Positions 1,652-26,345 of a DNA stretch of 40,433 nt are shown piece by piece. The notes under the pieces are model-generated. The model ran no database searches, had not been told where the DNA came from, and saw nothing but the letters and a program-made list of their open reading frames with translations. This stretch comes from Oligoflexia bacterium (GTDB taxonomy: Bacteria > Bdellovibrionota > UBA1018 > CAIMNF01): NCBI GenBank assembly GCA_903845155.1, contig CAIMWN010000033.1, forward strand, positions 1 to 40,433, given 5' to 3'. The translations under genes were made by a program, and so were the position numbers. Each line of letters starts with the position of its first letter. Positions within the stretch are counted from its first letter, which is position 1.

Positions 1652-4600
1652 CTAGACAACTTGAATGGGCACAAAACCACTCATTGATTTTGGTATTAAC
1701 TTAACACCTAAGCGCTCGTAACGATCACGCACTAACCTCTCCTCGTAGCGGCTAGTAACAAGAATAGACTGTGAAGCAATTCCTAGCTCTTCAATTAAAT
1801 CCAAACCAGTTTCATTGTGGTTTATTATTTCGTAATCCATTAAAAAAAGCACATCATCTAGATCTGCAAAATTTTTACCAAAATAAGTGCGCAAATCACT
1901 CGGACTTGAAAGATTCACTATATTTACTTTGACAGAAGGTAAGGCTTCAATTCTTTCTTTCCAAATATGATGAATCGCTTGGTCATCATCAAACACCACC
2001 AACGTTGTTCTACTTTTTAAGATCAAACCAGGTACGAACCAAGCAGAAGGGTGGTGCTTGGGTAAAGTTATGGCTATAGTCGTACCTTTATTGGGTTTAG
2101 ATTTAACGGTTAGACTTCCTCCCCAAGTCGAAACACTCTCTAATGCATGACTTAGCCCTAGACCGTAACCATTCTTTTTCCCGAATGTCACTCCACGCTG
2201 ACCAACAAGCTTAATCCGCTCATCTGTCATCCCTCTACCATTATCAGAAATTAATATTGAAATAACTCCATCAGATACCGTTGAAAGCGATACATCAACC
2301 CTACCCGCTCCGGCGACTAAAGCATCTACTGAGTTATTGATTATGTTTGAAAGAACTCTTTTGAATTCATTTTCCTGCAAAAATGAAAACAAACCATAAC
2401 TTTCTAATGTCTGATTAAATTCGATTTCAGTCTTTATCTGATTTCTATATTGTGTTCTCTTTTCGGTTATAACTGACTCAATTAAAGGCGCCAAGAGAGT
2501 TACGGACAATGGTTCACCTAATTGGACCACTATTTCGTCAACGGTCTCATGGGAAGGCACTTCTAAAGCTTTGTTTTTCTCTAGCAAAGAATTGGCTATA
2601 TCCTTTATCCTATTTACAGCATTACGAATGATAACTCGTCGATCTTCAGGGACTTCACTTAACGTAGACAGCATCATTTCGAGTGCCGATAAAGGTGATC
2701 GAATATCATGAGATACTTGTGAGGCAATTTTTGAGGATATCTCTTGGGTGATTGCTTTTTCTTTAAGCTTTGCATAAGAATCGAGCTCACTTGAAAGAAG
2801 AGCAAACTCGGATATTACAAAGTGTTCATCTGGTAAGCCGTCCTTCCTTTTTAATCGATCCACTTCTTTAATGATCTGTTTTGATGCTTGTAAAATTAAA
2901 ATGAAAAGCAAAAAACCTAAAACTGCATAACCAAAAATACTAATTACTACTCTATAAAAAACCGCCGAATTGATTTCAGAATAGTCACAGTAGAGACTAA
3001 CCATTGCTGCCTCTTTCTTCCTTTCTTCATCATAAAATATAGGCTTAGTTATACGCTTAACGTTTTTTCTTCTAGAAAAAGACTCACACTCTCCAAGATT
3101 ATTATTATTTATTGAGACCACAACACAAACATCTGTATTTTCAATTTGAATAGAGTTTACTCTTGCTAGAATCTCTGTGTAACTACCTTGTCTGACTGGC
3201 TCTTTTAAAGCTGCACTTAAAGCATTTAAAACAATTGTATTGCTATTCTCCTTTATTGAGCTTGCCTTATACTTATATTCCACGACATCAAAACTAACTA
3301 AGATCACCAAACAAACCGTTGTTGTGCCAATAATCGCTCTAGTCAAATAACTTTTTAATGATGTACTCGAAAGATAGACTGGCGTTTTGTCAAAAATGAT
3401 CAGGGTATAGCAAAATACTGTAAAAATAAGAATCCCAATAAAAAAAACTAACTCTGATGAAAATGAGTAATTCAGAAGTAAGCCGAAAGCAGCAATAACT
3501 CCAAATCCAATCAATCCAAACACTTCACCTATACTGCTCCAAGTAGCGCGAACGGATTCAGGAAGTTGCTTTATTACATTTGAAGAAATCCAGCCTTGCA
3601 AAAGTTGACCAAATGTTGCTGCGAACACGCAAAACACAAATAAAAGCATGCCGTTTAGCAGTGCTTGCTCAATTAAAAATCCACTTAGAAGCGTCAGTGC
3701 GGTAAAAACAAATAAAATCACTGGGGCAATTTGAAATATTTGCTGAGAGCTAAATTTCACAATTTTAGACGAGAGAAACTTAGAAGTTAACACCGTTATC
3801 AAATTAATTGCTAATCCAACAACCGTTCCCTTGAGCCATATACTTTTTAGCTCTGGATTATCAATACTCAGATATTTGTAAATTTCACCATAAAGATAAA
3901 AACTCGTACCTAACGACAAGAGTATAGATATCCCATATAGAACCAAAGGCGTAGGCATCATGGAAGCGACTTTTGCTACAGAAAATGTATTCTCCTCACC
4001 TTTAGACCTTATTTCGTTTTTAACTGATTTCAAGTCATGCGTAACCCTAAAATACACAACAAATCGGAGTAGAAAAATAAATGCTATCAGTAGTGAAAAA
4101 ATAATCTTTGGATTAAAATTGCTATAAAAAAAAGCAATTGAACCAATTGATAATGAAATTATGGGCAGTCCAATTCGAATTGGAAATGCATACTTGAACG
4201 AAGACACAAATAATGGGGGCGCATCTTCTATTGCAATAGAACTACTTTTAAGTTTTTCGTGATACCACTTCCCATAGGCAGCTGTATAAGCTCCATTAAT
4301 AAAAGAAACCGCAAATGCATCGGCAATTGCCTCAAGAGCAATAAGCATCCAACTGAAAGAAACAAGCCCTTTACTAATAGACAAAACAGCCAAAGCAAAT
4401 AGAACTGTCGTGATGAATTTAATTCTTAAGCCTATTTTGATGGACTGAACCCATCCAAACCTATCGGCAAATCGACCTGTTGGGATTTCCAATAGCCCAT
4501 TTATAGTAAGTTGCAAAAAAGCATTCCCAAGTATTCCTTTTGAACCAAACTCAGGTGTTGTTGCAATAATTGAAAGAAGAATTAAATTAGAGGAAAGTGC

Positions 4601-4663
4601 TGTTCCTCTATAAAGAGCATCGCTGCGTGCATAGTGTTTGACAAAGTCTAGAGCTTTTTTCAT
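1652..4663 (-). CDS. MFS-domain / sensor histidine kinase / receiver fusion protein
   Basis: 1003-residue membrane sensor. Residues 1-425 form an MFS-like domain of about 12 helices (FGWVQ-type loop near 70, PESVRAT near 368). A further helix at 441-459, an extracytoplasmic segment at about 460-570 and a helix at 571-591 follow. The kinase part has the H-box SHDIRSP with His652, N-box IINNSVDAL near 774, G1 DNGRG at 807-811 and G2 GYGLGLS at 832-838. The C-terminal receiver has FDDD at 891-894, phospho-acceptor Asp943, Thr970 and Lys992. There is no DNA-binding output domain, so phosphate probably passes to a partner elsewhere. Its start overlaps the solute-binding gene by 4 bp (ATGA), implying co-translation. 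The MFS part may be a ligand sensor or transporter-sensor. Confidence 0.88.
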   Translation of the reverse strand: MKKALDFVKHYARSDALYRGTALSSNLILLSIIATTPEFGSKGILGNAFLQLTINGLLEIPTGRFADRFGWVQSIKIGLRIKFITTVLFALAVLSISKGLVSFSWMLIALEAIADAFAVSFINGAYTAAYGKWYHEKLKSSSIAIEDAPPLFVSSFKYAFPIRIGLPIISLSIGSIAFFYSNFNPKIIFSLLIAFIFLLRFVVYFRVTHDLKSVKNEIRSKGEENTFSVAKVASMMPTPLVLYGISILLSLGTSFYLYGEIYKYLSIDNPELKSIWLKGTVVGLAINLITVLTSKFLSSKIVKFSSQQIFQIAPVILFVFTALTLLSGFLIEQALLNGMLLFVFCVFAATFGQLLQGWISSNVIKQLPESVRATWSSIGEVFGLIGFGVIAAFGLLLNYSFSSELVFFIGILIFTVFCYTLIIFDKTPVYLSSTSLKSYLTRAIIGTTTVCLVILVSFDVVEYKYKASSIKENSNTIVLNALSAALKEPVRQGSYTEILARVNSIQIENTDVCVVVSINNNNLGECESFSRRKNVKRITKPIFYDEERKKEAAMVSLYCDYSEINSAVFYRVVISIFGYAVLGFLLFILILQASKQIIKEVDRLKRKDGLPDEHFVISEFALLSSELDSYAKLKEKAITQEISSKIASQVSHDIRSPLSALEMMLSTLSEVPEDRRVIIRNAVNRIKDIANSLLEKNKALEVPSHETVDEIVVQLGEPLSVTLLAPLIESVITEKRTQYRNQIKTEIEFNQTLESYGLFSFLQENEFKRVLSNIINNSVDALVAGAGRVDVSLSTVSDGVISILISDNGRGMTDERIKLVGQRGVTFGKKNGYGLGLSHALESVSTWGGSLTVKSKPNKGTTIAITLPKHHPSAWFVPGLILKSRTTLVVFDDDQAIHHIWKERIEALPSVKVNIVNLSSPSDLRTYFGKNFADLDDVLFLMDYEIINHNETGLDLIEELGIASQSILVTSRYEERLVRDRYERLGVKLIPKSMSGFVPIQVV

Positions 4664-6132
4664 TGATTTATTAAGTCAAAAATTTTCGGCGTATACCTTA
4701 AATTACTAGCGGGCTCTTCAAGAGGCTTGCTCGTTAAAGTATATGCTGATGTTCTCCATGCTGGTACAACCCAACTCTCTTTTACCAATGTCATATCAAA
4801 GTCTCTAAATAGGTCAGACCTTCTTGACCAAGAAAGTTCTTTTGATGCAGCAGTTAATTTCAATAAAAGATCTTTCGAGTAACTATGAACCGAATTTTTT
4901 ACGATTTGGTTCAAAATTGGCAAAAAACCTTCTGGGTCGTTAAATCCACCTGCCCAGCGATCTATAATTACATCAACATCATGCAAATCCATTTTGGCAA
5001 AATCACTATTTTCAATAATATTAATTTTTACTCCGTGAGCACTCTCAATACTTTTAATTAAATCTGAATCAATGACCTCATTTTTTAACCGCGGAGGAAT
5101 AACGACTGAAATCTGAGACCAGTCAGGGTGCTTAAATACAACTGCCTTACTTAAGGTGGATACTGGCTTCGGAAATATTATTTCATTAATAATATGTCCA
5201 CTTACGCCCATTGGAATAAGACCAAAAGAAGGAGAAAAATGTAGAGACTCCCTTCTGAGTTGAATTAGTTCCCTTAGAATTGACATTTTAAATTTTTTAG
5301 CCTCCACACTAGTTGCGCTAGGTCCCTGTGGATTCCACCATGCCAACGTCTGACTAAAACTTACCCTTGGCCTAATTGAATACTTACTTTCATCAAAAAT
5401 TTTGTTTTTGCGTAAAGCATCCACTTCAGACTGACTAATGGCAGGCGCAAAATCAGGAAAAACACTTATTCTTTCTAGCTCATTTATATTTGCTGGAGAA
5501 AAAACAAGACACCATTCAACGCCGCTAATTTTCTTCTCATCTCGAAACTTACTGTTTTTAATATAAACCCAATTATTTTCTTTCTTTTGAAGTCGATAAG
5601 GGCCGCTTCCAATAAATGGTTCGAGACTTTGGCTTTCAAAAGTCCACCCAAACGGAACAACGCCTAGATGATCTCGACTTAAAACCTTAAGAATTGCTAC
5701 TTGTGGCTCTAAAAGTTCAATAATTAACTCAAATTCAGAAGTTGCCTTTATAGACTTAATCTTTTTTAGGAGCGGGTATGATTGAGATTTACTATTTTTC
5801 CAATGTCGCCCAATGGAATACTCAACATCTTTAGCTGTAATTTTTTTCCCGGTTGAAAAAACTGCATCATTTCGAATATGGAATGTTATTCGAAGTCCAT
5901 CCTCACTGACTACCCATGAGTCTGAAATAGATGGCGCTACATTTCCAAATTGATCTGACACAACCAAAGGTTCAATCACTTGGCCTATAGCCATTTGCTC
6001 TCTATATGTATCAAATTCAATAGTATCTCTAGGAAAAGAAGATGGAATCAAACCAATAGTTCTCATAATTGCAAATGCCTCTGAATTTAAAAGTATAGAA
6101 AAAATAATGATAAACATTTTTATATAAAACAT
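4660..6132 (-). CDS. Family-5 extracellular solute-binding protein (oligopeptide type)
   Basis: 490-residue protein with an N-terminal signal peptide (MFYIKMFIIIFSILLNSEAFA). The body is typical of SBP_bac_5: EPLVVSDQFGNVAPSISDSW, LRITFHIRNDAVFSTGKKITAKDVEYSI and GSGPYRL. These proteins usually deliver peptides, nickel or other solutes to ABC permeases, but no permease or ATPase gene is present here. The gene overlaps the HExxH gene upstream by 13 bp and the MFS-kinase gene downstream by 4 bp. A role as periplasmic ligand receptor for the sensor kinase is therefore more likely than nutrient import; this is inference from context. Confidence 0.85.
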   Translation of the reverse strand: MFYIKMFIIIFSILLNSEAFAIMRTIGLIPSSFPRDTIEFDTYREQMAIGQVIEPLVVSDQFGNVAPSISDSWVVSEDGLRITFHIRNDAVFSTGKKITAKDVEYSIGRHWKNSKSQSYPLLKKIKSIKATSEFELIIELLEPQVAILKVLSRDHLGVVPFGWTFESQSLEPFIGSGPYRLQKKENNWVYIKNSKFRDEKKISGVEWCLVFSPANINELERISVFPDFAPAISQSEVDALRKNKIFDESKYSIRPRVSFSQTLAWWNPQGPSATSVEAKKFKMSILRELIQLRRESLHFSPSFGLIPMGVSGHIINEIIFPKPVSTLSKAVVFKHPDWSQISVVIPPRLKNEVIDSDLIKSIESAHGVKINIIENSDFAKMDLHDVDVIIDRWAGGFNDPEGFLPILNQIVKNSVHSYSKDLLLKLTAASKELSWSRRSDLFRDFDMTLVKESWVVPAWRTSAYTLTSKPLEEPASNLRYTPKIFDLINQ

Positions 6133-6896
6133 TGAGAGTACACTTTCTCGATCATTTGTTTTGCTAATACTGTTAATTCATTGCTCTCAAGAGTTAAGCA
6201 AGTTTGCTTCAACAATCGTTTGTTATGACTCGAATCATGATCAATAGATTCTTGGAACTTAATCATCCTGTATAGCGCATGTGCTGCGTGCAGCCTTCCA
6301 ATGGTAGGCCTATCTGTTTTTTGTAATGGTGCATATTTCAATACTTTATCGCCGCCTGCTGCTACCAGCCTGTCAGTTGTATTGATAAGAAATAACTCTT
6401 GGTGCGCTAATTCATGTGTGGCAGAAAGCGCAAGCTCATGCTCACTCAAGTTAAACCAATCCATGGTTACGACAAGGCACCCATAAATAAGTGGAGTCGA
6501 AGCAGCTTTAAAGTCACAGCCATCAACAATTAATATGTTTGTAATAGTATTTGAAAAAAGCTTACCCAAACTTTGATTGTAATTATTTAGTCTAAACCAA
6601 ATTTTTTCACTCTCAACATTTGTACGCTCAGAAAACGGTAATGGCTTATTGCCTGGGATTGCACCCGAAATTAATTTGCTATTAAACTTAATGCCTAGGC
6701 AATTAATTGCTGTGTGCGCTTTTACAGCTTCAGTAATTTCACTGCTGTTTATTATCTTATAATAGACAGCAGATTTTAAGAAAATAGGCCATTCAGATGC
6801 CTTAGGGGAATCCAAGCGGGAAGACAGCGCACCTTCAAATGCTGGCAATAGCTTAGGGAGTGCCCACCCCCCTGCTTGGAGTTCCTCGATAATCAT
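6120..6896 (-). CDS. HExxH protein, probable aKG-HExxH-type peptide beta-hydroxylase
   Basis: 258 aa, no signal peptide. HELAH is at residues 161-165. It is followed by a pattern I recognise from the HExxH putative peptide-modification family (TIGR04267-type, since described as 2-oxoglutarate-dependent peptide beta-hydroxylases): a D/R pair, YAPL at 188-191, DRPTIG at 195-200 and a LHAAHAL helix at 202-208. Known members hydroxylate side chains in RiPP precursors using Fe(II) and 2-oxoglutarate. The gene starts two bases after the stop of a 24-codon ORF with a strong ribosome-binding site and has little SD of its own, suggesting translational coupling. An ordinary zinc peptidase is the alternative, but the downstream pattern argues against it. 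Confidence 0.7.
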   Translation of the reverse strand: MIIEELQAGGWALPKLLPAFEGALSSRLDSPKASEWPIFLKSAVYYKIINSSEITEAVKAHTAINCLGIKFNSKLISGAIPGNKPLPFSERTNVESEKIWFRLNNYNQSLGKLFSNTITNILIVDGCDFKAASTPLIYGCLVVTMDWFNLSEHELALSATHELAHQELFLINTTDRLVAAGGDKVLKYAPLQKTDRPTIGRLHAAHALYRMIKFQESIDHDSSHNKRLLKQTCLTLESNELTVLAKQMIEKVYSQCFI

Positions 6897-6898
6897 TT

Positions 6899-6973
6899 TT
6901 AATCTCTATCGATTCTCGCTTCTGAAAAAACTGTATCGTTGAAAATATCTAGGTTAATTAGTGTCGTTGACAT
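6899..6973 (-). CDS. Small peptide ORF, candidate modified-peptide precursor
   Basis: 24-residue ORF starting ATG at 6973 behind a strong SD (AAAAGGAG, 8 bp from the start codon), ending TAA at 6899. Sequence begins MSTTLINLDIFND and ends FSEARIDRD. It is acidic, with four aspartates, the residue type known to be hydroxylated by some HExxH enzymes. The stop is two bases from the start of the HExxH gene. Position, RBS and coupling fit a RiPP precursor. It could instead be a leader peptide that only sets translation of the next gene. Too short for homology; no cleavage motif is evident. Confidence 0.55.
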   Translation of the reverse strand: MSTTLINLDIFNDTVFSEARIDRD

Positions 6974-7002
6974 AATAGGGTACTCCTTTTGATTCGTATG
7001 GT

Positions 7003-7049: not shown

Positions 7050-7228
7050 TTATTAGTTAATGTCTGAATTCCGACCCTGTTTCAATGCGTGCTTAAGCAA
7101 GCTCCTTGCCAACCGCTAACTGCGATATAACCAATACCTAAGCAATACTGTGGGGTTTTCCCCAACAGCAATTTGCTGGTTATCACCTCAGTAAACCATC
7201 CAAACAGGCTAATGAACCCACCACCTCT

Positions 7229-7987: not shown

Positions 7988-8845
7988 ATGCGATTAAAAA
8001 GTTATACAAGCTCTTCAATTTTAATACTCACTCTCTTTCTATTTCCATCAACACTAAGCCAAGCATCACCAATCAGAGAGGTCACACCAAACTCCAGCAA
8101 ACTCATCCCAATTCACACATCACTCGGCTACTCAACTATACTCGAATTCCAAGAGAAACCAGTTTCATCAATATTAGGTGACCAAGATGCATTCAAATTA
8201 GAGTATGTCGGAAACTCCATCACACTTAAGCCACTCTTCCATAGTGCTAAATCGAATTTATTTATTTATACAGGGTTTGATCGTTTCAACTTTGCGATCA
8301 CCACTACTCCACCACCCAATACTGATTATGTGGTTCGAATCATCAAATCAAAGGATGAAAAACCCTCAAACTCATCGGCTCCTGAGATAACACAATCACC
8401 TTACACCGTAATCCCGTTTAACCTCAAATCTTCCCGAAGTGGATTTACACTGAAAGTGCAAGAGTTGGATCTCGCACGCGATATAAAAAACCCACGCTCA
8501 GCATCTCTCATTAAGTTTGATTTAGCCTCTAATGGGGAAGACCACCAATTTGTACCCGCTTCATTTGGGCTCAAACAGGAAGGTAAATTTCTTGATGTCG
8601 AAGGCATTTATCTTGAAAAAATGACAACATCTAAAAAGCAATCTCCCACCACAGGAGTAATTGCTGTTTTAAATCAACAATGGAAAAGAAGTACTCCCCT
8701 TACCTTAGTCTTTGCATTCGAGCGTGAAATCAAAAATAAAAGGCAATCTAGTCACATTCAGGTCACCTTCAATACGAATCAAAAAACAGTAAAGAAGGAG
8801 AAACTAAATGGCAAAACAGGGCTTTTTCAGGTCCCTCACTCATAA
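7988..8845 (+). CDS. VirB9/TrbG-like outer-complex protein
   Basis: 285 aa with a signal peptide ending near SQA-S (residues 1-26). Residues 45-105 resemble the N-terminal domain of VirB9/TrbG/CagX proteins: LGYSTILEFQEKPVSSILGD, then GNSITLKPLFHSAKSNLFIYT, then DRFNFAI. VirB9 forms part of the periplasmic/outer-membrane core of type IV secretion systems. SD GGAGGT at 7977-7982 sets the start. The 3' end overlaps the VirB10-like gene by 38 bp. The C-terminal half is divergent, so the call is for family resemblance rather than an orthologue. Confidence 0.65.
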   Translation: MRLKSYTSSSILILTLFLFPSTLSQASPIREVTPNSSKLIPIHTSLGYSTILEFQEKPVSSILGDQDAFKLEYVGNSITLKPLFHSAKSNLFIYTGFDRFNFAITTTPPPNTDYVVRIIKSKDEKPSNSSAPEITQSPYTVIPFNLKSSRSGFTLKVQELDLARDIKNPRSASLIKFDLASNGEDHQFVPASFGLKQEGKFLDVEGIYLEKMTTSKKQSPTTGVIAVLNQQWKRSTPLTLVFAFEREIKNKRQSSHIQVTFNTNQKTVKKEKLNGKTGLFQVPHS

Positions 8846-9752
8846 AACCTTCTTTGAACAATCAAGGTTCGCAGCTGAAAAGAGACAAAAACTAAATCTT
8901 AAAATCATTCTCACACTCTTCGGATCATTATTGGGTGTGGTCATGCTAGGAATTGTAATTTTCACACCTAGCGACGACGTAAGACCCACTCAACCGCCTC
9001 CAAAGCTTGAGTACACATCGGGTGTATCACTCCCAAAAGATATAAGTCCTCCAGAACTGCCACGAAATAATACTCAGCGGTTTACAAGTACATCACAGGG
9101 AGCTACCTCAAGCGGTGCCGGGAGCGCATCGGGTAGATCAAGAAATGCAAATCAAGTCATTCGCCGGGGCATGAATGGGAATGACCCTGGCGCATTAGTT
9201 CCAATGGGTTCGGTAATTCGTGCACGATTGATGAATAGTGTTCTCTCGACTAATACAGTAAGCCCTGTGGTTGCGTTAACGCTGCAAGAAGCTCAATCAC
9301 AAGACGGGCTGTCAATTCCACAAGGAACTAAAGTTCTTGGCTCAGCTACCTACGATGACCAGAGTAAACGCATTCAGATTCAGTTTCAAAACCTGATTTA
9401 TGAAGATGGAAGTCAGCACGCTCTTCAAGCAATGGCCGTGATGCCTGACGGATCAGCAGGGCTCAGCGGTGAATACCATTCTGGGGAAGGAAAACGTCAA
9501 CTTGGCCAATTCTTTGGAAATTTTATCGGAGGTCTAGCTGATGGAATGAAAGATCGATCTTCAAGCGGAGGATTCTACGGGGGGTCCATTGAGCCCGGGT
9601 CTATCAAAAACGGCCTCCTGAACGGAGTTTCTATCTCTGCATCAGACGAGGCTAAAACAATTGCGAATGAGATGGGTAGTGAAAAGCCATCTATGTCAAT
9701 TCAAGCGGGATTCCAATTTCAACTATTTCTGCAAAAGGAGTATGTGCCTTGA
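8808..9752 (+). CDS. VirB10/TrbI-like T4SS channel protein
   Basis: 314 aa. A single inner-membrane helix at about residues 30-52 is followed by a proline- and serine/glycine-rich linker (55-125) and a C-terminal TrbI/VirB10 domain: GSVIRARLMNSVLSTN, IPQGTKVLGSATY, RIQIQFQNLIYEDGS and DGSAGLSGEY. VirB10 spans the envelope and senses ATPase energy during DNA transfer. It overlaps both neighbours, forming an operon with the VirB9- and VirD4-like genes. SD AAGGAG precedes the start at 8808. Confidence 0.8.
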   Translation: MAKQGFFRSLTHKTFFEQSRFAAEKRQKLNLKIILTLFGSLLGVVMLGIVIFTPSDDVRPTQPPPKLEYTSGVSLPKDISPPELPRNNTQRFTSTSQGATSSGAGSASGRSRNANQVIRRGMNGNDPGALVPMGSVIRARLMNSVLSTNTVSPVVALTLQEAQSQDGLSIPQGTKVLGSATYDDQSKRIQIQFQNLIYEDGSQHALQAMAVMPDGSAGLSGEYHSGEGKRQLGQFFGNFIGGLADGMKDRSSSGGFYGGSIEPGSIKNGLLNGVSISASDEAKTIANEMGSEKPSMSIQAGFQFQLFLQKEYVP

Positions 9753-11473
9753 ATAAAGATGAAAAAGGAAACGTCTTCAATGAAACCTTCATCTTATGGG
9801 TAATATTTTTAGGGTTTTTAGGCTGGCTCCTCTATAAAGCACTTCAATTATTAAAGCTATTTTACCACGAGCACCACACACAGATTCACTACTTTCTACT
9901 TTCATCCTTAATTCTGATTGTTTTTCCAGTACTGAGCTATTTACATAACCGATTCATTGATTGGGTGGAAACGTTAAAAAACAAAAAAACACCTCCAGCT
10001 CAAATTCTTGTTGGAACCTCTACCAAAACAAAAAAGAAAATTTTCATCGAAGAAAAAGCACGCCTTTACCATACTCAAGTCATTGGAAGTACCGGATCAG
10101 GAAAAACCGAGGGAATTATTCTTCCTTGGATCTTCGATGACATTGAAAATGGACGTGGAATTCTTATCATTGACGGAAAACCGGAAGATAAAACACTCGC
10201 TAAACTCTATGGAAAAATCTCAAAAGAAGGTCGGGAGAAAGATTTTAGGCTGTTCTCGATGGTTCACCCCGAACTCTCTCACGCATTCAACCCCTTCTCC
10301 TACGGTTCGGCCGAAGAGGTCAGTGAGCGCATCTTCTCTTCCTTCGAAACCACAAGCGAGCACTATAAGTCTGTTCAGTTTTCTGGAACATCATCAGTAA
10401 TTGCTCTAATTAAATCACTAGGCATCACACCCAAGGCTGGGCTCATTAGGGAGTTGCTCAGAGATCAGGATTTGCTGAAAGACTGGTCAAAGCAAATTAG
10501 CAGCCCCGAGCTCTATTCGGATCTTGAAAAAATATTGTCTCTTCCTCAAGCTCAATTCCAAAAGGACTTTTCCGGGATTTTGGCTTATCTTGAAAACTTC
10601 ACAAAAGGTGCCGCCGCTAAAAATCTGAATCAAAACTATTCTGACATTCACTTTGAAGAGGCTTTACTAAATAAAAACATCATCTACTTTCAGCTACCCA
10701 CGCTTAAATCACCTACTCTTGCCTCAAATATTGGCAAGCTCGTCATTCAAACCTTTGCGGCAGCTGCAGGAGAGTTTCAAGCGCGCGCACTCAAAGAGCC
10801 TGACCAGATGTTTTCTCTCTATCTTGATGATTTTAACGATTATATGTACCCAGGTTTCGCATCCGTTTCAAATAAAGTGCGCTCAGCAGGCATTGGGATG
10901 ACCTTTGCCCATCAATCTTTAGGAGACCTGAACAAGGTTAGCCCTGAGTTCAAAGACATCATTATTGAAAACACCAATAACAAAATTATTCTCAAAATTA
11001 ATGACCCTGAATCGGCAGATTTCTTTGCAAGCTATATTGGCACTAACTCAACCGAAAAAGTCACTGAACGACAATCAAGAGGGTTTATTGGCACTCAAAA
11101 GTCGGGTGAACAATCAGTTCGTGAAACTGAAGAGTTTATCGTTCACCCGAATGTATTCAAGTCAGAGCTTTCACCCGGCGATGCGGTTGCTATTATCACT
11201 AACCCAAGTGCTCCGAGGAAGATCGAACGAATCAAATGTGAACGCATTAGAATAGATTCATATTCCTTTCTTCCTCCTAAAATTGTGCATAAGGAAATGA
11301 CCTTTATCAACGAGGCAAAGCGCTTTACAGCGGTTAAAAAGGACACCCATGGTACTACACAAAATAACACCGCCGCTCCACCTCAAACCACTACCCCGCC
11401 AGTCTTAGCAGTCTCTCAAGAAATGGCCGCAAACAAAGTAGAAGGAAAACATGTGCATGAACAAACGAATTAA
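9749..11473 (+). CDS. VirD4/TraD-type coupling protein
   Basis: 574 aa. Two N-terminal membrane helices (about 12-36 and 48-66), then an ATPase with Walker A GSTGSGKT at 113-120 and Walker B LYLDDF near 356. A TraM-recognition-like segment (KVRSAGIGMTFAHQSLGDL) follows. Coupling proteins hand relaxase-bound DNA, or effector proteins, to the T4SS channel. The start overlaps the VirB10-like stop by 4 bp. No VirB4/VirB11 ATPase and no relaxase are found nearby, so it may serve mobilisation through another machine or belong to a reduced system. Confidence 0.88.
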   Translation: MNKDEKGNVFNETFILWVIFLGFLGWLLYKALQLLKLFYHEHHTQIHYFLLSSLILIVFPVLSYLHNRFIDWVETLKNKKTPPAQILVGTSTKTKKKIFIEEKARLYHTQVIGSTGSGKTEGIILPWIFDDIENGRGILIIDGKPEDKTLAKLYGKISKEGREKDFRLFSMVHPELSHAFNPFSYGSAEEVSERIFSSFETTSEHYKSVQFSGTSSVIALIKSLGITPKAGLIRELLRDQDLLKDWSKQISSPELYSDLEKILSLPQAQFQKDFSGILAYLENFTKGAAAKNLNQNYSDIHFEEALLNKNIIYFQLPTLKSPTLASNIGKLVIQTFAAAAGEFQARALKEPDQMFSLYLDDFNDYMYPGFASVSNKVRSAGIGMTFAHQSLGDLNKVSPEFKDIIIENTNNKIILKINDPESADFFASYIGTNSTEKVTERQSRGFIGTQKSGEQSVRETEEFIVHPNVFKSELSPGDAVAIITNPSAPRKIERIKCERIRIDSYSFLPPKIVHKEMTFINEAKRFTAVKKDTHGTTQNNTAAPPQTTTPPVLAVSQEMAANKVEGKHVHEQTN

Positions 11474-14139: not shown

Positions 14140-14799
14140 TTAACTTGGCGTCTGATTTGAATTTCCGAAATCAAAATCAGTGAGTTTTAATCCTGAGGTA
14201 TCTGTATTCTGCCACAAAATAACTATCTTGATGCCTTCAATATAAATGAGGCTTGAGTCCTCCCCGTGGAATATCTTATCTCCAAAAAAATGAGAGTTCT
14301 TTACGAAATCACTTTTAAGACTGCTAGATGCCTCTAAATGTATTTTATGAATTCGTTCATAGGGACTCTTAGCCAGTTTTTCTAGGGACTTATTTTTTCT
14401 AACAAGATACTCGGCTGAGTATTGCATGGTCCAAAAATTAAACGGCAGGTCTAAATTTCGGTACTCATTTAAAGAATACCAGTTAAACCAAAATCGACCA
14501 TCACTGGTTAATCGTTCGCCTTTATTCCAGTGCAACGCTGGGTGCTCTAAGACTACTTTTGGCACACCCTCCTCCGCTGGAGTCACCGTGTAAAATGCAA
14601 TTCCAAAATTGTTGGCTCTTCTTTCTTTTAAGAACTCAAAATAAGTTCCATCACGCATTGAAACATAAAGACCATTCCAAGACTCATCTGGTGTTACGAC
14701 ATGTTGTTCTTTCGAAAATGGCTTATCTTTAAATTCTGCCGCAATTGTTCCATATGCATCCTTTGTACATCCAAAATACAGGTGATCTAAAAAAATCAT
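14140..14799 (-). CDS. DUF5829-like / VOC-like protein, third cistron of the abiE operon
   Basis: 219 aa, soluble. The N-terminus MIFLDHLYFGCTKDAY and the later SWNGLYVSMRDGTYFEFL resemble DUF5829-type proteins related to the glyoxalase/VOC fold; this is a weak match from memory. Its ATG overlaps the AbiEii stop by 4 bp (ATGA), the same spacing as between AbiEi and AbiEii, so it is probably co-translated with the toxin-antitoxin pair. Role unknown: it might modify or neutralise the toxin, or be a passenger. Confidence 0.6.
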   Translation of the reverse strand: MIFLDHLYFGCTKDAYGTIAAEFKDKPFSKEQHVVTPDESWNGLYVSMRDGTYFEFLKERRANNFGIAFYTVTPAEEGVPKVVLEHPALHWNKGERLTSDGRFWFNWYSLNEYRNLDLPFNFWTMQYSAEYLVRKNKSLEKLAKSPYERIHKIHLEASSSLKSDFVKNSHFFGDKIFHGEDSSLIYIEGIKIVILWQNTDTSGLKLTDFDFGNSNQTPS

Positions 14800-15731
14800 A
14801 CGGCTCTCAATTTATTTACCAGTTCTTTATTCTGCAATTCGAGCTTGGCTGGATTATTGGTTTTCAGTGTCTGAATATTTTGCAACTTCCATTGAATACC
14901 TGGAAAATCTTTTGCATGTTCAACATCCAACAAATCCCATTTCGGACTGCCCTCCGCAAACGAAATAAGGAAATTCTTATGTGCCTCGGTTAAGTTTGCA
15001 TGAATGCTACTTACCAGTTGAGTTCTAGCCTTCAAAAGCACATTTAATGGAATCACCTCAGGTGTCATTGATTTGAAGGTTTTTTCGTATGCAACTGATA
15101 TGTCCTTTTGGGTTGAAAATAGAACTTCTTGAAGTGGTCTGCCTGTACAAAGCAGATAAGATATAAAAAGAGACATCAACTTACCATCAATTTTTGATTT
15201 TTCGAAGAACATCTTCACATCAAATAAATCTCTAGGATGTTGCCTGTCGAGTGCCGCACAAAACTTGCCAGCATAGTTTTCGTTTTTAGTAAGCACTGGG
15301 CACTTAATGTCTTTTTGAAACACCTCTTGCGCTAAACCGCAAAGAGATAAGTTCTTGGGTTTTTCAAGGGTTCCGCGAATAACAAAGTTCGGTTCGATCA
15401 CTACCCCAGTTTTTCCAACGAGCAAATTCAACTTTTGAGTAAGTGAATTGCCGCCTACTCTTGTGAGCAAAGTTTTTGACTTTGGTATAGTTGCTTCTAG
15501 CTTTTTTGCGATGCGATTAAGTGCCTCAGAAATTTTAATCTGGGATTCTTCATACGACTCAATAGGAAGATAAACCAGATCAATATCCACCGACAGCCTG
15601 GGGAAATTTTCCAAAAATAAGTTGATTGCAGTACCACCCTTCAAAGCAAAGCACTCTTCTTGAAAAACCACAGGCAGACACTCAACCATTAAATTTGCTT
15701 GCTTAAGAAATGGGCTATCTTCGTAGATCAT
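14796..15731 (-). CDS. abiEii: AbiEii-type nucleotidyltransferase toxin
   Basis: 311 aa. Nucleotidyltransferase of the AbiEii/AbiGii toxin family: LKGGTAINLF near residue 30 with the acidic pair SVDIDLVY near 48-55, and the downstream AGKFCAALDRQHPRDLFDVKMF block. Known AbiEii-family toxins act as GTP-dependent or tRNA-modifying nucleotidyltransferases that stop growth, contributing to phage abortive infection and element stability. Translationally coupled to AbiEi by ATGA overlap. Catalytic motifs look intact. Confidence 0.88.
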   Translation of the reverse strand: MIYEDSPFLKQANLMVECLPVVFQEECFALKGGTAINLFLENFPRLSVDIDLVYLPIESYEESQIKISEALNRIAKKLEATIPKSKTLLTRVGGNSLTQKLNLLVGKTGVVIEPNFVIRGTLEKPKNLSLCGLAQEVFQKDIKCPVLTKNENYAGKFCAALDRQHPRDLFDVKMFFEKSKIDGKLMSLFISYLLCTGRPLQEVLFSTQKDISVAYEKTFKSMTPEVIPLNVLLKARTQLVSSIHANLTEAHKNFLISFAEGSPKWDLLDVEHAKDFPGIQWKLQNIQTLKTNNPAKLELQNKELVNKLRAV

Positions 15732-16507
15732 GCGCTCACCTCTGAATTGCGAGGAACAGTAATAAGGTATTCGGCATCAAAAACCCCATTTGGCTCGATT
15801 ACTTTTTTACCTACCCCCAAGTTAATCTTTGTTTTATTGATTTCCTTATACCATGCATGATTTGCTTCGCGCGCTAAGTACAAGAAAAGACGTTTCACTT
15901 TGAATGACTTACAACACTCAAGATGACTTTGAATTACTTTTGGACGAAGTGTAGAGAGTTGAATAAATAAGGCTTGAACCGATTGAAGCTCTCTTTTTTG
16001 AGGGACTTCAGCAAGTAACTCTAGAATCGCCCTTTCTCTTGAAGCTATTTTTAATTTAAACGAATTTATTTTTGTTTCAAAAAATGTCTGTACTGGTTCT
16101 TTTGAAAATAAACCGCTTTGTGAAAAATGAGGCCGCATATTCAAAGCTTCATTAAAAGCCCACTTGGGTAGCTTTGATCTCTGGGTTCCATATAAGTAAA
16201 TGTCTTTTATTTTTGATTGAGGCACTTGATCCATCACTCCATGCAGCTCTAATGCACTTTCTGCGCCTACATGGATTTCGAGTTTTAGCTGTGATTGAAT
16301 TGCTTCAATGGCAGCCATCCAATCAAGATGATCCCCCACTTTAAAATAGGCTCCTGTACCGATTCGCTTTAACCAACTCGATTCAACATATCGCTGAATC
16401 AAGCTGTCACTCACTCCCTGCAAATGCAGCCACGGTGTGGTTGCAATCAAGTTTTGAGGCCATTTTTCAAAAAGTCTGTTTATTTTAGACCCTGTAGAAA
16501 CACTCAT
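15728..16507 (-). CDS. abiEi: AbiEi-type antitoxin/autorepressor
   Basis: 259 aa. N-terminal winged-helix region (WLHLQGVSDSLIQRYVESSWLKRIGTGAYF) followed by the AbiEi core with VGAESALELHG and the SRERAILELLAEV segment. In known type IV systems AbiEi represses its own promoter by binding inverted repeats and antagonises the AbiEii effect. Here two GTTTATAAAC-like repeats lie upstream. A -10-like TATAAT ends 6 bp before the ATG, so the mRNA may be leaderless. Confidence 0.85.
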   Translation of the reverse strand: MSVSTGSKINRLFEKWPQNLIATTPWLHLQGVSDSLIQRYVESSWLKRIGTGAYFKVGDHLDWMAAIEAIQSQLKLEIHVGAESALELHGVMDQVPQSKIKDIYLYGTQRSKLPKWAFNEALNMRPHFSQSGLFSKEPVQTFFETKINSFKLKIASRERAILELLAEVPQKRELQSVQALFIQLSTLRPKVIQSHLECCKSFKVKRLFLYLAREANHAWYKEINKTKINLGVGKKVIEPNGVFDAEYLITVPRNSEVSA

Positions 16508-18324: not shown

Positions 18325-18537
18325 ATGTCAAAATTGGAGCGAAAAACCTCCAAAGCTCATTCAAAGACATTCTCTGTAGAAGAAATACGGTTCGAAATTG
18401 GTCAGGAGGAAAATCATGAGCGAATCAAAAGGCTCGCGTTCAAAATCGTCTCCACATTGGAGATCACAGACAACAGCGATGGGAAGAAACCAGAATCCCC
18501 CTTCAAAAGAGATTTCAGCAAAAAACTCGGGTTATAA
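18325..18537 (+). CDS. Small ORF overlapping the serine recombinase start
   Basis: 70 aa, charged (MSKLERKTSKAHSK... FKRDFSKKLGL), preceded by GGAG 8 bp before the ATG. Its last 122 bp overlap the recombinase in another frame. The SD and its position between the regulator and the recombinase favour a real gene or a coupling ORF; no family recognised. Confidence 0.4.
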   Translation: MSKLERKTSKAHSKTFSVEEIRFEIGQEENHERIKRLAFKIVSTLEITDNSDGKKPESPFKRDFSKKLGL

Positions 18538-20263
18538 AATCGCAGCCTACGTGCGCTTATCTCCTACCGACGAAATCAGAGAAGAGGGTTCACTGGTTTC
18601 ACATCCTCAACGTATCCGTGACTTCGTAAAATATAAAAATGCATCACACCCTGGTTGGGGCGAAATTGTAGAGATCTACGTTGATAAGGACTTATCTGGC
18701 AAGAACATGAAACGTCCTGCTTTCATCAAAATGTGTAAAGACATGAAAGATGGAAAAATTAATGCAGTGATTGCCACAGAACTTTCACGTCTAAGCAGAA
18801 ATCTAAATGACTTTTGTCAGTTCTGGGAATTCTTAAAAGAAAGACAAATCAAGCTCATTACCCTAAAAGAAAACTGTGATACTTCAACCCCAATGGGTGA
18901 ACTCACTATCATGCAAGCGGTTAACTTTGCCCAATTTGAGAGGCACACTACCGTTGCCAGAACCACCGACGGAGCTTACGCGCGAGCATTGCGTGGACTC
19001 GCAAACGGCGGCCCAAGAATGCTTGGGTTTGACCCACACCCCTCTCATCGCTGTAACTTGATTGTGAACGAATCTGAGATTGGCTATGCCAGGCTGATTT
19101 TTGAAAAGATGCTTGAACACAAGACCATCAGAGGTGTTCAGAAATTTCTCAATGACAATGGCTATAGGACAAAAGAATATGTCACGCTTGAAGGAGTAAA
19201 GCGCGGCGGCAAGAAATGGTCTTGCAGCACCCTACATCATCTCCTCACCAACATGCGCTATATTGGAAAAAAAGAAATCAACAAGCGCGGAAATCTATAC
19301 AAATCAGTCACAGGTGAAATTCCGCAATATACTGTCGTCGATGCAAAATGGCCTGCAATCATTCCATTAGAATTATTTGAAAGTGTGCAAAACCTCTTGG
19401 TATCGAATCGCAGCAAGACCAGACGATACACTCATCAGTACCGACTCTCAGGAATGATTTACTGTGGTGAATGCGGCAATCGCCTTATTGGTTCATCTGC
19501 TTATGGCAAAAGTAAAAAATTCTATTACTATGCCCACCTTAGAAAAAACACTCATCACAATGACAAGAGTTTAAAGAAATGCTCAGCTGAACGAATCCCT
19601 GCACTGCTGCTCGAAGAATTGATTATTGAACGGTTGAGTATTCTTTCGCAAGACAAAGACCTTCTTCGTGAGCTTGCTCTAGCATCCCGAAAAAACTTTG
19701 GTGATAAAATTGAATCCACAAAATCGCTACTACTTTCAAAAGAACAACAGAAGCGAAAATCCAAAGAACGGATTGAGGGGCTGATCGAAGCGGTTGCCTT
19801 CTCAACAGGATCAATTGATGCAAAACAGCTTCTCGTTCAAAAAATTGATGAAGAGAATGACTCTCTAAAGCGCATCGAAACTGAGCTTGAGGTACTGAAG
19901 CAAGAACAACGCTCTATGGACCCCGACCTCATTGATTTGGAGTCGGTCTTTAAACTCTTGGCTAGCTTCCGCAAAAGCTTCCAAACGAAGCCCGGCCACC
20001 TTCAAAGTGAAATCCTAAAGGACATCATTCACAGGGTTACGATTGGAACCAATGACAAAATCATTCTTGAGTACTTCGGATCAAAACAATCTGAAATTGA
20101 TATTTCTGGACTACAAAATAAAAAAGGGGCGGCTCCTACTAATGGGGCCACCCCTTTTTTCAATTTTACTCGTTCTCCATCTGACCTAGCTAGGTCTAAA
20201 GTTCGTACGTTGTACGAGATGGTGGGCGATGAGAGGCTCGAACTCCCGACCTTGACGGTGTAA
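18416..20263 (+). CDS. Large serine recombinase/integrase
   Basis: 615 aa from ATG 18416, chosen because CAGGAGG precedes it by 6 bp. N-terminal resolvase domain with catalytic Ser49 in AAYVRLS, conserved ATELSRLSRN and GELTIMQAVNFAQFER; recombinase domain (NGYRTKEYVTLEG, TNMRYIGKK); zinc ribbon GMIYCGECGNRL...KKCSAERIP; coiled coil near 440-500. It would integrate or excise an element by single-crossover recombination. The last 40 or so codons cross a terminator and the tRNA-Val fragment, giving the tail VGDERLELPTLTV; the natural end is probably near residue 565. The gene may have been joined to the tRNA region by integration. Confidence 0.88.
   Translation: MSESKGSRSKSSPHWRSQTTAMGRNQNPPSKEISAKNSGYKIAAYVRLSPTDEIREEGSLVSHPQRIRDFVKYKNASHPGWGEIVEIYVDKDLSGKNMKRPAFIKMCKDMKDGKINAVIATELSRLSRNLNDFCQFWEFLKERQIKLITLKENCDTSTPMGELTIMQAVNFAQFERHTTVARTTDGAYARALRGLANGGPRMLGFDPHPSHRCNLIVNESEIGYARLIFEKMLEHKTIRGVQKFLNDNGYRTKEYVTLEGVKRGGKKWSCSTLHHLLTNMRYIGKKEINKRGNLYKSVTGEIPQYTVVDAKWPAIIPLELFESVQNLLVSNRSKTRRYTHQYRLSGMIYCGECGNRLIGSSAYGKSKKFYYYAHLRKNTHHNDKSLKKCSAERIPALLLEELIIERLSILSQDKDLLRELALASRKNFGDKIESTKSLLLSKEQQKRKSKERIEGLIEAVAFSTGSIDAKQLLVQKIDEENDSLKRIETELEVLKQEQRSMDPDLIDLESVFKLLASFRKSFQTKPGHLQSEILKDIIHRVTIGTNDKIILEYFGSKQSEIDISGLQNKKGAAPTNGATPFFNFTRSPSDLARSKVRTLYEMVGDERLELPTLTV
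20117..20160. terminator. Rho-independent terminator, probably bidirectional
   Basis: A-run, GGGGCGGC, loop, GGGGCCACCCC and T-run (20155-20160). On the minus strand it lies about 60 bp beyond the 3' end of the tRNA fragment, so it may be the original terminator of the tRNA-Val gene; on the plus strand it falls inside the recombinase frame. Confidence 0.7.
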
Positions 20264-20265
20264 AC
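20220..20265 (-). repeat. attL: displaced 3' part of tRNA-Val
   Basis: 46 bp identical to 34648-34693, running from the CCA end to the anticodon loop of tRNA-Val. It lacks the 5' half of the tRNA and so is not a functional gene. It marks the left junction of the integrated element. Confidence 0.92.
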
Positions 20266-20309
20266 GTCCGTCGTTTGGTTGGAAATTTTGCGCAGCACCA
20301 AAAGCCCAA

Positions 20310-20420
20310 TATTTCTCCTTGCTTCACGATACCTCTCTTTGCCCTTCAAATAAAGGAAAAAAACAACTGCGGTTGTGGAACCTTCAAGCATCGACAATCA
20401 TCCATGCGCAAGGAGAAATA
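20310..20420. repeat. Long-range inverted repeat upstream of the integrase
   Basis: TATTTCTCCTTGC at 20310-20322 and its exact reverse complement GCAAGGAGAAATA at 20408-20420, 85 bp apart, between attL and the integrase start. It could be a regulatory fold in the integrase leader or a pair of recombinase/accessory-factor sites. Confidence 0.55.
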
Positions 20421-20427
20421 CTCACGC

Positions 20428-20448
20428 TGGAGTTAGGGCGGAGTTACG
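20428..20448. promoter_or_regulatory. Candidate integrase arm-type site, left end
   Basis: TGGAGTTAGGGCGGAGTTACG: two GGAGTTA copies 11 bp apart (20429-20435, 20440-20446). The same 21 bp with one change occurs at 34535-34555 near the other end in the same orientation. It ends 7 bp before the integrase ATG, so binding could also block integrase translation or transcription. Confidence 0.65.
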
Positions 20449-20455
20449 AGAAAAT

Positions 20456-25379: not shown

Positions 25380-26345
25380 ATGAAACCTCCTACTGCTATC
25401 ACAAACTCTCGTTTCCCCATGGTCTCCACAACGCAATTCCGCTCGTTGATTGAAGAGTGGCTCCGGTCGCATGATGTTTCGGAAGCGAGCAGGGTAGCAT
25501 ACAGGAGAAACATCCGAAACTTTCAGCGATGGTCAAAAGTGAACTGTTCACAAACACCAACCCGCGAAACTATTCTGGCTTACAAAAAATATCTCATCAC
25601 CCAGAAATATACAGCATGTACCCAATCAAATTACCTCAGTGCAGTCCGCGAGTTTTTCAAATTCATGGAGCGAGTTCACGGTCTACCTAACCCCACCAGA
25701 GACTTAAAAGGTGTCCGCCAACCTTCAGGGCATCGAAAAGATGCCCTGTCACTTGATCAACTCCGGGCATTGTTTTTATCTGTGCCCACGGACTCATTGA
25801 TGGGCCTTAGGGACTCATTAATCCTACAAATCGCGGGGCGACTTGCGCTTCGCTCCTGCGAAATGTCCAGAGCTGACATTGGTGATGTTCAAAGACGTGG
25901 GGACAAACACATTTTGCTGGTGAGAGGAAAAGGGAAACTAGAAAAAGACAACTGGGTTGTCATCGGAGACGACTGTTATGCTCACATACAGCGCTATCTT
26001 TTAAGCCGGGGTACAACGAAAGCAACTGACCCTCTCTTCATTTCGCTTTCTGATAACTGCTATGGAGCCCGCCTAGGAACAACCTCACTTAGAAAAATTA
26101 CAAAATTTTATCTCAGAAAAATCGGCCTAAATTCACCTCGCATAACCCTTCATTCCCTCAGACATACAGCGATCTCGCTCTCACTTCAAGCGGGAGCCAG
26201 CCTACTCGAATGTAAAGAGATGGCCCGTCACGAAGTAATTACCACTACCATGGTGTACGCGCACTCGGCCCACAGATTACTCACTTCTGCCGAACTCAAG
26301 TTGGAGAAGCTCCTGCAGAGTGAAATAGAAGAAAAGAAGGAGTGA
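25380..26345 (+). CDS. Second tyrosine recombinase (XerC/D-like)
   Basis: 321 aa. SAM-like N-terminal domain (residues 15-100), then catalytic motifs: Arg in LALRSCEMSRAD, Lys in VRGKGKLEKDNW, HSLRHTAIS, and ARHEVITTTMVYAH with the Tyr nucleophile. It lacks the arm-binding domain of the first integrase, as Xer-type proteins do. GAGGT lies 4 bp before the ATG. A TTTACG/18 bp/TATAAT pair at 25341-25370 and a hairpin ATATCT-TTACG-AGATAT lie upstream. The 205-bp gap before it holds nothing else. Possible role: dimer resolution or mobility of a nested unit. Confidence 0.88.
   Translation: MKPPTAITNSRFPMVSTTQFRSLIEEWLRSHDVSEASRVAYRRNIRNFQRWSKVNCSQTPTRETILAYKKYLITQKYTACTQSNYLSAVREFFKFMERVHGLPNPTRDLKGVRQPSGHRKDALSLDQLRALFLSVPTDSLMGLRDSLILQIAGRLALRSCEMSRADIGDVQRRGDKHILLVRGKGKLEKDNWVVIGDDCYAHIQRYLLSRGTTKATDPLFISLSDNCYGARLGTTSLRKITKFYLRKIGLNSPRITLHSLRHTAISLSLQAGASLLECKEMARHEVITTTMVYAHSAHRLLTSAELKLEKLLQSEIEEKKE

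Follow-up and report, generated by a model that had tools for sequence, protein, structure and literature searches.

A putative operon for making, modifying, and sensing a peptide signal in Bdellovibrionota

We report an operon of a member of the Bdellovibrionota whose products probably (we estimate about 0.7) make a ribosomal peptide (RiPP), oxidize it after translation, bind it in the periplasm, and sense it, with the self-produced, modified peptide acting as a signal. This make-modify-bind-sense reading had been put forward in a preliminary description of the same DNA and is largely supported by the analyses below; we infer the secretion, ligand binding, signaling, and exact chemistry.

Results

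Four coupled genes on the minus strand

The operon lies in the window, the whole stretch of 40,433 nucleotides analyzed here, with the following parts.

6983-6988, minus strand: ribosome-binding site AAGGAG, from the sequence
6899-6973, minus strand: 24-aa precursor ORF, peptide MSTTLINLDIFNDTVFSEARIDRD, from homologues and a core profile
6120-6896, minus strand: predicted aKG-HExxH-type peptide hydroxylase, 258 aa, from TIGR04267 and ChlH matches and an AF2 model
4660-6132, minus strand: family-5 (oligopeptide/nickel type) solute-binding protein, SBP5, from PF00496 and the N-terminus MFYIKMFIIIFSILLNSEAFA
1652-4663, minus strand: fusion of MFS-like, periplasmic sensor, histidine kinase, and receiver regions, 1003 aa, from HisKA, HATPase_c, and the homologues L010 and L124
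858-1619, minus strand: SDR-family oxidoreductase, 32 bp downstream and perhaps an optional fifth gene, with a paralogue elsewhere in the genome

All four coupled genes of the preliminary description are present, with the spacing it gave: a gap of 2 bp (6897-6898) after the peptide gene, then overlaps of 13 bp (6120-6132) and 4 bp (4660-4663). The ribosome-binding site, called strong in that description, stands 9 nt upstream of the ATG of the 24-aa ORF, and this ORF is conserved in relatives; the operon recurs in a congener (G004), complete with a 24-aa homologue of the ORF. Apart from the MFS-like domain, no gene for export and none for a protease was found in the window operon. The SDR paralogue is 81% identical and precedes another histidine kinase gene with the same divergent receiver domain (HK-RR*) in the same genome (G000:C277, L009); in G004 no SDR gene follows the operon. 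The preliminary description had not foreseen four features treated below: Sec-type leaders in relatives, a resemblance to the Pseudomonas precursors PflA/PosA, a sigma-54 promoter, and the exchange of one modifying enzyme for another.

A binding protein encoded beside a putative sensor kinase

The binding protein is of the oligopeptide/nickel-binding type (PF00496, E=6.5e-28) and begins with a Sec-like signal sequence. As described earlier, it comes without permeases, no ABC permease gene adjoining it. The signal sequence, the 4-bp overlap with the kinase gene, and the lack of a permease fit a LuxPQ-like, binding-protein-dependent sensor kinase. We distinguished four regions in the fusion protein.

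3374-4663, minus strand: MFS-like 12-helix region, about residues 1-430, from the motif-A-like EIPTGRFADRFGW, model helices, and a sub-threshold MFS_1 match in L124
2984-3226, minus strand: putative extracytoplasmic sensor region, roughly residues 480-560; C513 and C526 invariant in the alignment, and an alpha/beta segment flanked by two long helices in the model
2708-2710, minus strand: predicted phospho-accepting His652 in SHDIRSP, invariant in alignments
1655-2011, minus strand: divergent receiver domain (RR*), D943/T970/K992, recognized by these residues, the DDD residues, and a beta-alpha fold

The kinase part of the fusion claimed earlier stands (HisKA, HATPase_c); the MFS and receiver parts gave no Pfam match in the window protein and rest on motifs, residues, and the model. 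For the MFS-like region, Pfam MFS_1 did not match the window or L125 parts, and its match in L124 was sub-threshold (E=0.0011, 18.4 bits versus 33.4); the motif-A-like sequence is common to the window fusion, L125, and L124. Hydropathy gave 10 segments before residue 465, some long enough for two helices, and about 12 helices appear in the region in a low-confidence model (pLDDT 64.4, too poor for fold conclusions beyond the kinase core). The receiver-like domain found no match in a profile search against the PDB. It occurs at 86 places in 34 of 55 genomes of the order. A single genome (G039) has 19 kinases of this type.

The genes are linked elsewhere as well: SBP5 and a histidine kinase lie on the same strand within 6 kb at 33 of 44 HExxH loci, and five loci have neither. 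The G019 locus has a precursor and an MFS gene with no SBP5 or kinase beside HExxH; a sister genus (G012) has two SBP5 genes, HExxH, and HK-RR*, and a precursor was looked for there and not found. Trees of the HExxH, SBP5, and kinase proteins are congruent (Mantel r of 0.86, 0.72, and 0.71; 0 of 2000 permutations), in tests that partly reflect shared species history, with HExxH and SBP5 agreeing most closely of all pairs (r=0.86). Among the 11 other congeners examined, the operon was present in just one, so it is dispensable.

The SBP5 and HK-RR* module also stands repeatedly beside genes for other RiPP enzymes, namely YcaO, DUF4135 (LanM-type), radical SAM, and nitroreductase. Nine or ten of the 26 YcaO places in the order are within 6 kb of an RR* kinase, where about 0.16 would be expected. 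We see an even chance that Bdellovibrionota use modular peptide pheromones, in which a constant SBP5 and a dedicated kinase family, often sigma-54-wired, are combined with an interchangeable aKG-HExxH enzyme, YcaO, LanM-type dehydratase, radical SAM, or nitroreductase to give each lineage or paralogue a private chemical signal.

These arrangements bear on two other readings. The peptide might be an antimicrobial RiPP, with SBP5 and the kinase only monitoring the product to tune its synthesis and signaling being secondary. Such dual use is established for nisin, which acts as an antimicrobial and tunes its own synthesis via NisRK; moreover, the tandem cores of some relatives would suit a product made in quantity, and the neighboring MFS region is a possible exporter. 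However, the clade-I operons that were read contain no immunity gene, peptidase-exporter, or ABC exporter, and what stays constant is SBP5 next to a kinase while RiPP enzymes are swapped, as in a receptor family. We regard an antimicrobial as unlikely, if the best of the alternatives.

Alternatively, the sensor could read foreign peptides, for example from prey, with the HExxH and peptide genes being merely a co-regulated output. These are bacteria of a predatory phylum, and nutrients are the usual cue of binding protein-kinase pairs, as in the SBP-activated kinases of Pseudomonas (PMC11113362). Yet the precursor and enzyme genes come first and are translationally coupled to SBP5, and the closest tree agreement, that of HExxH with SBP5, is what would be expected if SBP5 tracks the enzyme product; we judge this reading improbable. 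A simple nutrient sensor was also considered and rejected.

The predicted modifying enzyme

Family score and fold both place the HExxH protein among the aKG-HExxH peptide hydroxylases and not among ordinary peptidases. Two conserved motifs were located in it.

6402-6416, minus strand: HELAH metal-binding motif, H161, E162, and H165, invariant in 23 relatives
6288-6311, minus strand: RPTIGRLH motif, R196-H203, candidate third metal ligand or aKG site; R196, P197, and H203 invariant, aligning with RPPSGLLH of ChlH

S133 and D175 are likewise invariant among the 23 relatives, together with R196, P197, and H203. The protein scored 46.1 bits against TIGR04267 (cut-off 40), in keeping with the peptide beta-hydroxylase pattern noticed earlier, and all 13 relatives scanned matched this family at E<=0.01. 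Its best solved relative in a profile search was ChlH (PDB 8s5f, E=3.3e-9), and the AF2 model (pLDDT 91.8) found the same structure as its best Foldseek match (E=2.4e-8, TM 0.57). A scan of the genome contigs with the single window protein gave no match, and an alignment of 13 relatives was required. No HExxH relative was found on the plasmids searched.

An enzyme of this kind might still be a protease, or purely a processing enzyme that trims the peptide, rather than an oxygenase. HExxH is a protease motif, and PflC hydrolyzes a leaderless peptide at the same site (PMC12636437), the window peptide being one without an evident separate leader. Against this, TIGR04267 is matched above its cut-off, the fold is that of ChlH, peptidase folds appear only at E>0.3, and RPxxGxLH is common with ChlH. 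We consider a protease as improbable as a sensor of foreign peptides, and an ordinary metallopeptidase operon was considered and rejected.

The precursor and its core

Judging by its sequence, the 24-aa ORF is a real precursor gene. Its core is as follows.

6908-6946, minus strand: core motif IFN-x6-ARID, in the register of PflA IFD-x6-ARMD, from a core alignment with PflA/PosA; the enzyme is predicted to act at the ARID Ala or before it

Against a core profile from which its own clade was left out, the window peptide scored 29.3 bits, a score reached by 0 of 20,000 shuffles, and is therefore no chance ORF. A chance match to IFN-x6-ARID, in what is a post hoc comparison, is about 8e-7 per 24-mer. 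The x6 segment reads DTVFSE in the window peptide, and the core consensus is IF[DN]-x6-ARxD, a pattern that fits PflA/PosA, RiPP precursors of Pseudomonas. For the 24-aa ORF in the window versus G004, pN/pS was 0.45, with 24 codons being too few to weigh.

A precursor with this common core was found in 15 of 16 clade-I HExxH operons across Bdellovibrionota, the locus with none seen being L083. A small ORF or core thus recurs beside HExxH in relatives, in G004 (24 aa), in L124 (24 aa), and in 12 further loci with a C-terminal or repeated core. The core comes singly in a 24-aa peptide, C-terminally in Sec-leader proteins, or as tandem repeats. Several cores per precursor are seen in G100 and G103, both near-complete genomes. 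In relatives a Sec-like leader is joined to the core; in the window, G004, and L124 the peptide amounts to roughly a single core unit, extended at its N-terminus by 3-5 residues. Cores were identified by reading translated ORFs, and repeat limits in four large Sec-leader precursors and in the 262- and 295-aa repeat proteins were set by eye. In several relatives the Ala of ARxD gives way to Ser, Pro, Leu, or Met, L124 reading PRVD at the corresponding site; PosC-type cleavage, which requires the Ala, therefore cannot be general. At clade-II HExxH loci (L086-L093 and others) the candidate precursors are of other kinds, with C-termini such as YSRHSFIR, ASFIAGH, and RDHSFA, and these were kept out of the ARxD family.

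That the tiny ORF, 2 bp upstream of the HExxH gene, is a leader or translation coupler with no peptide function is very improbable given that its protein sequence is conserved in the cores of precursors of 70-295 aa from other families, and given their tandem repeats and their position, always beside HExxH. Leader-peptide attenuation was considered and rejected.

Transcriptional control

We identified one candidate promoter for the operon.

7096-7112, minus strand: putative sigma-54 (-24/-12) promoter TTGGCAAGGAGCTTGCT, matching the consensus at 12 of 13 positions and lying 139 nt upstream of the peptide start

The G004 operon has a counterpart, TTGGCAGAAGGATTGCA, at -149, again with 12 of 13 consensus positions; the background is 0.0053 matches of at least 12 positions per 460 nt. 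In 13 of 20 relatives the in-operon regulator has a sigma-54 promoter in front of it, versus 0.021 expected per operon, and all three in-operon response regulators tested contain a Sigma54_activat domain. A cognate sigma-54 activator is absent from the window and G004 loci and encoded in the operon of many relatives; some 20 sigma-54 regulator candidates lie elsewhere in the window genome. The promoters at the window and G004 loci, taken with the in-operon sigma-54-activating regulators of most relatives, suggest autoinduction, which we consider likely for this operon.

Discussion

Taken together, these data suggest a route from gene to signal. As its sequence shows, the operon encodes an aKG-HExxH enzyme and a 24-aa precursor that is in essence a single core unit. 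By homology, the enzyme would oxidize the core, most likely by beta-hydroxylation between IFN and ARID, and/or attack at the ARID Ala, which would leave MSTTLINLDIFNDTVFSE-NH2 as an amidated product, in the way that PflC/PosC act on ARMD. Specific cleavage or amidation at ARID, proposed by this analogy, is tentative and somewhat on the doubtful side. Since Pfl/Pos enzymes also cleave oxidatively and amidate, +16 Da on its own may not be the right readout. The peptide would then exit the cytoplasm, possibly via the fused MFS-like domain, for which we put a role as exporter just short of even odds; relatives with Sec-leader precursors show no MFS-like domain. In the periplasm, SBP5 may capture the peptide or a trimmed form and contact the sensor region of the kinase. 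A phosphorelay would lead to a sigma-54-activating response regulator, supplied here in trans, which would activate the sigma-54 promoter ahead of the peptide gene and close a positive feedback loop.

To our knowledge, communication among bdellovibrios and their relatives is largely unexplored, and the operon makes the question directly testable in a laboratory host. If true, the self-made-signal reading would mean that Gram-negative predators use ribosomal, enzyme-modified peptide signals whose synthesis, receptor, and feedback are encoded together. It predicts substrates, product masses, ligand, and promoter; monoisotopic masses were calculated as 2785.36 for the peptide, with +16 for each hydroxyl group gained, 2058.00 for MSTTLINLDIFNDTVFSE-NH2, and 2058.98 for the corresponding acid. 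A receptor with a swappable enzyme would also be a handle for genome mining, the kinase and SBP genes pointing to unknown peptide chemistry.

Consistent with the preliminary description, we found no described system with the composition of the window operon in the literature searched. The pfl/pos systems of Pseudomonas have an aKG-HExxH enzyme beside a precursor whose C-terminal core, IFD-x5/6-ARMD, is in register with IFN-x6-ARID. Their HExxH enzymes beta-hydroxylate the core and cut oxidatively before ARMD, PflC/PosC hydroxylating a Gln run and PosC needing Ala for cleavage (PMC12636437). Unlike the window, where neither a nitrile-hydratase-like leader nor an MNIO-nitroreductase partner is present and no Gln run precedes ARID, pfl/pos have all of these, as well as a GNAT and two transporters, and no binding protein or kinase is reported for them. 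The function of the Pfl/Pos peptides was not established by the authors (PMC12636437), and our reading, if true, would offer one for HExxH peptides of this type. In the pes cluster of Peribacillus (nitrilobacillins), the aKG-HExxH enzyme PesO acts on the residue (Pro) before R(V/T)D(N) of its precursor (PMC13060819), a site resembling P/A/S-R-x-D here and PRVD of L124; unlike the window, that cluster has an MNIO, an asparagine-synthetase-like nitrile synthase, and M16 peptidases, and no sensor (PMC13060819). ChlH/ChlBH (8s5f) shares the fold, HExxH, and RPPxGxLH with the window enzyme but forms part, as one domain, of a radical-SAM fusion whose substrate is a cyclophane peptide.

On the sensing side, LuxP-LuxQ (AI-2), like other binding-protein-dependent sensor kinases and the window pair, has a periplasmic binding protein encoded beside a (hybrid) histidine kinase, and LuxPQ reads a self-made signal; it differs in its non-peptide ligand, a LuxP outside family 5, and a synthase outside the operon. 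Nisin and subtilin (NisRK) are Gram-positive, with a kinase that binds the peptide directly and no binding protein, other chemistry, and control that is not by sigma-54, but share with our proposal a modified, self-made peptide that controls its own operon via a two-component system.

Conserved precursor and operon

The preliminary description holds for the four minus-strand ORFs at 1652-6973, for the couplings between them and for the ribosome-binding site. Its reading of an operon that makes, modifies and senses a peptide is right in outline. The sequence shows a conserved precursor, the family and fold of the oxygenase, the operon with the co-evolution of its genes, and a sigma-54 element. 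The HExxH protein, described as of the peptide beta-hydroxylase type, matches TIGR04267 (46.1 bits against a cut-off of 40), and the binding protein matches PF00496, in agreement with family 5 (SBP5). Of the described MFS-kinase-receiver fusion, the kinase stands, with HisKA and HATPase_c found in the 1003-aa protein, but Pfam recognized neither MFS nor receiver; these two assignments come from motifs, from one homologue with a weak match and from a model of low confidence.

The entire operon is present in G004, a genome of the same genus, where the 24-aa peptide reads METTTINLDIFNETIFAEARVDEH and that of the window MSTTLINLDIFNDTVFSEARIDRD. At L124, a locus in an Oligoflexales MAG, MSEINLDIFLEDSIAEPRVDRAAF precedes HExxH, SBP5 and a further MFS-kinase fusion. 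In other families, 92-102-aa precursors with a Sec-like leader carry the same C-terminal core (L074, L075, L076-L081, L084), genome G019 encodes a 70-aa protein carrying the core twice, and 295- and 262-aa proteins (L082 and L085, respectively), with about six tandem copies each, lie upstream of an epimerase-like gene and HExxH-SBP5-histidine kinase (HK).

Secreted-looking precursors, both with the tandem repeat [ND]xxLDLLRxxxFSE[SA]R[VI]EIL
L082:7429-8316
L085:7769-8557

From these forms, a recognizable precursor is therefore present in 15 of the 16 clade-I loci (HExxH loci related to that of the window, with cores of the type IF[DN]-x6-ARxD), and the small ORF by the HExxH gene is conserved in G004 and L124 and, as the core of longer precursors, in other families. 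With a core profile built from the other families only, leaving out the window, G004 and L124, the window peptide scored 29.3 bits, a value reached by none of 20,000 shuffles.

HExxH matches were found in 67 of 369 genomes of the phylum. The proposed link between the operon genes recurs elsewhere: 44 HExxH loci were read, of which two are second fetches truncated at contig ends (L144, L145) and several are weak or unrelated matches; no more than 6 kb from HExxH, and on its strand, SBP5 was present in 38, HK in 34 and both in 33. The HExxH, SBP5 and HK trees were concordant (Mantel r 0.86, 0.72 and 0.71; 0 of 2,000 permutations), in part through common species history. Nine residues of the enzyme, including H161, E162, H165, R196 and H203, are invariant across 23 diverse relatives. 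Its structure model is confident (pLDDT 91.8) and has ChlH (8s5f), an aKG-dependent RiPP oxygenase, and SjiH as its top fold matches; ordinary metallopeptidases appear only at E>0.3.

Distant HExxH loci with a conserved 423-430-aa protein between HExxH and kinase
L139:1070-2341
L140:6441-7721
L141:4526-5818

Possible export and sigma-54 regulation

Within clade I, the loci read have an MFS-like protein only where the precursor is leaderless (four cases): the window, G004 and L124 carry it as part of the kinase fusion, and G019 has it as a standalone MFS_1 gene. None was seen at the Sec-leader loci in a nonexhaustive search. This association (Fisher p=0.0007, with three of the four leaderless cases forming a single clade) suggests that the peptide may be exported by the MFS part of the fusion.

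The window peptide is preceded, at a distance of 139 nt, by a predicted sigma-54 (-24/-12) element that fits the consensus at 12 of 13 positions, and G004 has an independent 12/13 element 149 nt ahead of its own. The first operon gene in relatives is often a response regulator with a sigma-54 interaction domain, and elements of at least 11/13 lie upstream in 13 of 20 regulator-led operons (expectation 0.021 each), from relatives that are not fully independent. No sigma-54-type response regulator was found near the window operon; elsewhere its genome encodes about 20 candidates. Peptide binding, signaling and autoinduction, like the modification chemistry and export, are inferred steps of the scheme.

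A second HExxH clade (clade II), with other candidate precursors (L086-L093, L128, L129, L136), has 144-170-aa proteins with a Sec-like leader, of a type unlike clade I and ending, for example, in YSRHSFIR, IYAKASFIAGH or FRDHSFA. These loci encode a sigma-54 regulator, and their sigma-54 promoters are strong.

Other features of the window
8808-11473, type IV secretion-like genes (VirB10/TrbI-like, VirD4-like)
14796-16507, gene pair, AbiEii/AbiEi toxin-antitoxin-like (by eye only)
18398-21709 and 25380-26345, recombinases
29161-29177, minus strand, perfect sigma-54 consensus CTGGCACGAGCCTTGCA

The type IV secretion-like genes and recombinases probably form an integrative element; the G004 operon has a different setting, adjoining ribosomal protein genes. 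A Bdellovibrionota operon (L123) lies on a contig labeled as a Streptomyces griseus MAG, probably a mislabeled bin.

A wider candidate receptor family

Matches to a profile of the divergent receiver (RR*) occur at 86 places in 34 of the 55 genomes of the order, 19 of them in G039 alone. Among the 60 places read, SBP5 adjoins the kinase without HExxH at about 25, and another RiPP-type enzyme is present at about 17 of these, both numbers being counted by eye on gene maps.

Enzymes beside SBP5 and HK-RR*
YcaO, clear: L100, L103, L106, L113, L149, L158, L168, L186
YcaO, weak matches: L156, L164, L172, L182
DUF4135 as in LanM: L108, L155
Radical SAM: L153, L170
Nitroreductase with GNAT: L162

A small Sec-leader ORF is often present at these loci, which are candidates for further RiPP-sensing systems. 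Conversely, the order has 26 YcaO places, and at 9-10 of them, again counted by eye, an RR* kinase is found no more than 6 kb away (expected, ∼0.16).

A second locus of the window genome (L009:1308-4921, contig C277) encodes a periplasmic-binding-protein-like ORF and an HK-RR* that lacks MFS, together with an SDR sharing 81% identity with the one at 858-1619 in the window; neither HExxH nor peptide was found there. At L175:7476-9844, the neighbors of an HK-RR* are a Peripla_BP_6 binding protein and an O-methyltransferase, which would fit the use of this kinase family for a nonpeptide signal.

Comparison with known RiPP systems

The Pseudomonas RiPP precursors PflA and PosA end in AAIFDQQQQIQARMD and AAIFDTQQQQARMD, respectively. 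The aKG-HExxH enzymes that act on them beta-hydroxylate the Gln run and make an oxidative cut ahead of the Ala of ARMD, yielding an amide (PMC12636437). The window core, IFN-x6-ARID, is in register with PflA but lacks the Gln run; the likeness was spotted post hoc, and its chance value of 8e-7 per 24-mer is to be weighed accordingly. In the pes cluster, it is the Pro ahead of R(V/T)DN that the HExxH enzyme hydroxylates (PMC13060819). Because the PflA/PosA and pes enzymes act there, the position preceding R-x-D is, by analogy, a plausible candidate target in the window peptide, and the chemistry may be similar, but several relatives have Ser, Pro, Leu or Met where the Ala of ARxD would stand.

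We found no description of this combination of parts in the literature searched, in which most subscription papers were lacking. The kinds of component are already known, namely, a RiPP enzyme, a binding-protein-dependent kinase and RiPP autoinduction; the modular receptor-plus-enzyme family has a fair chance of being categorically new.
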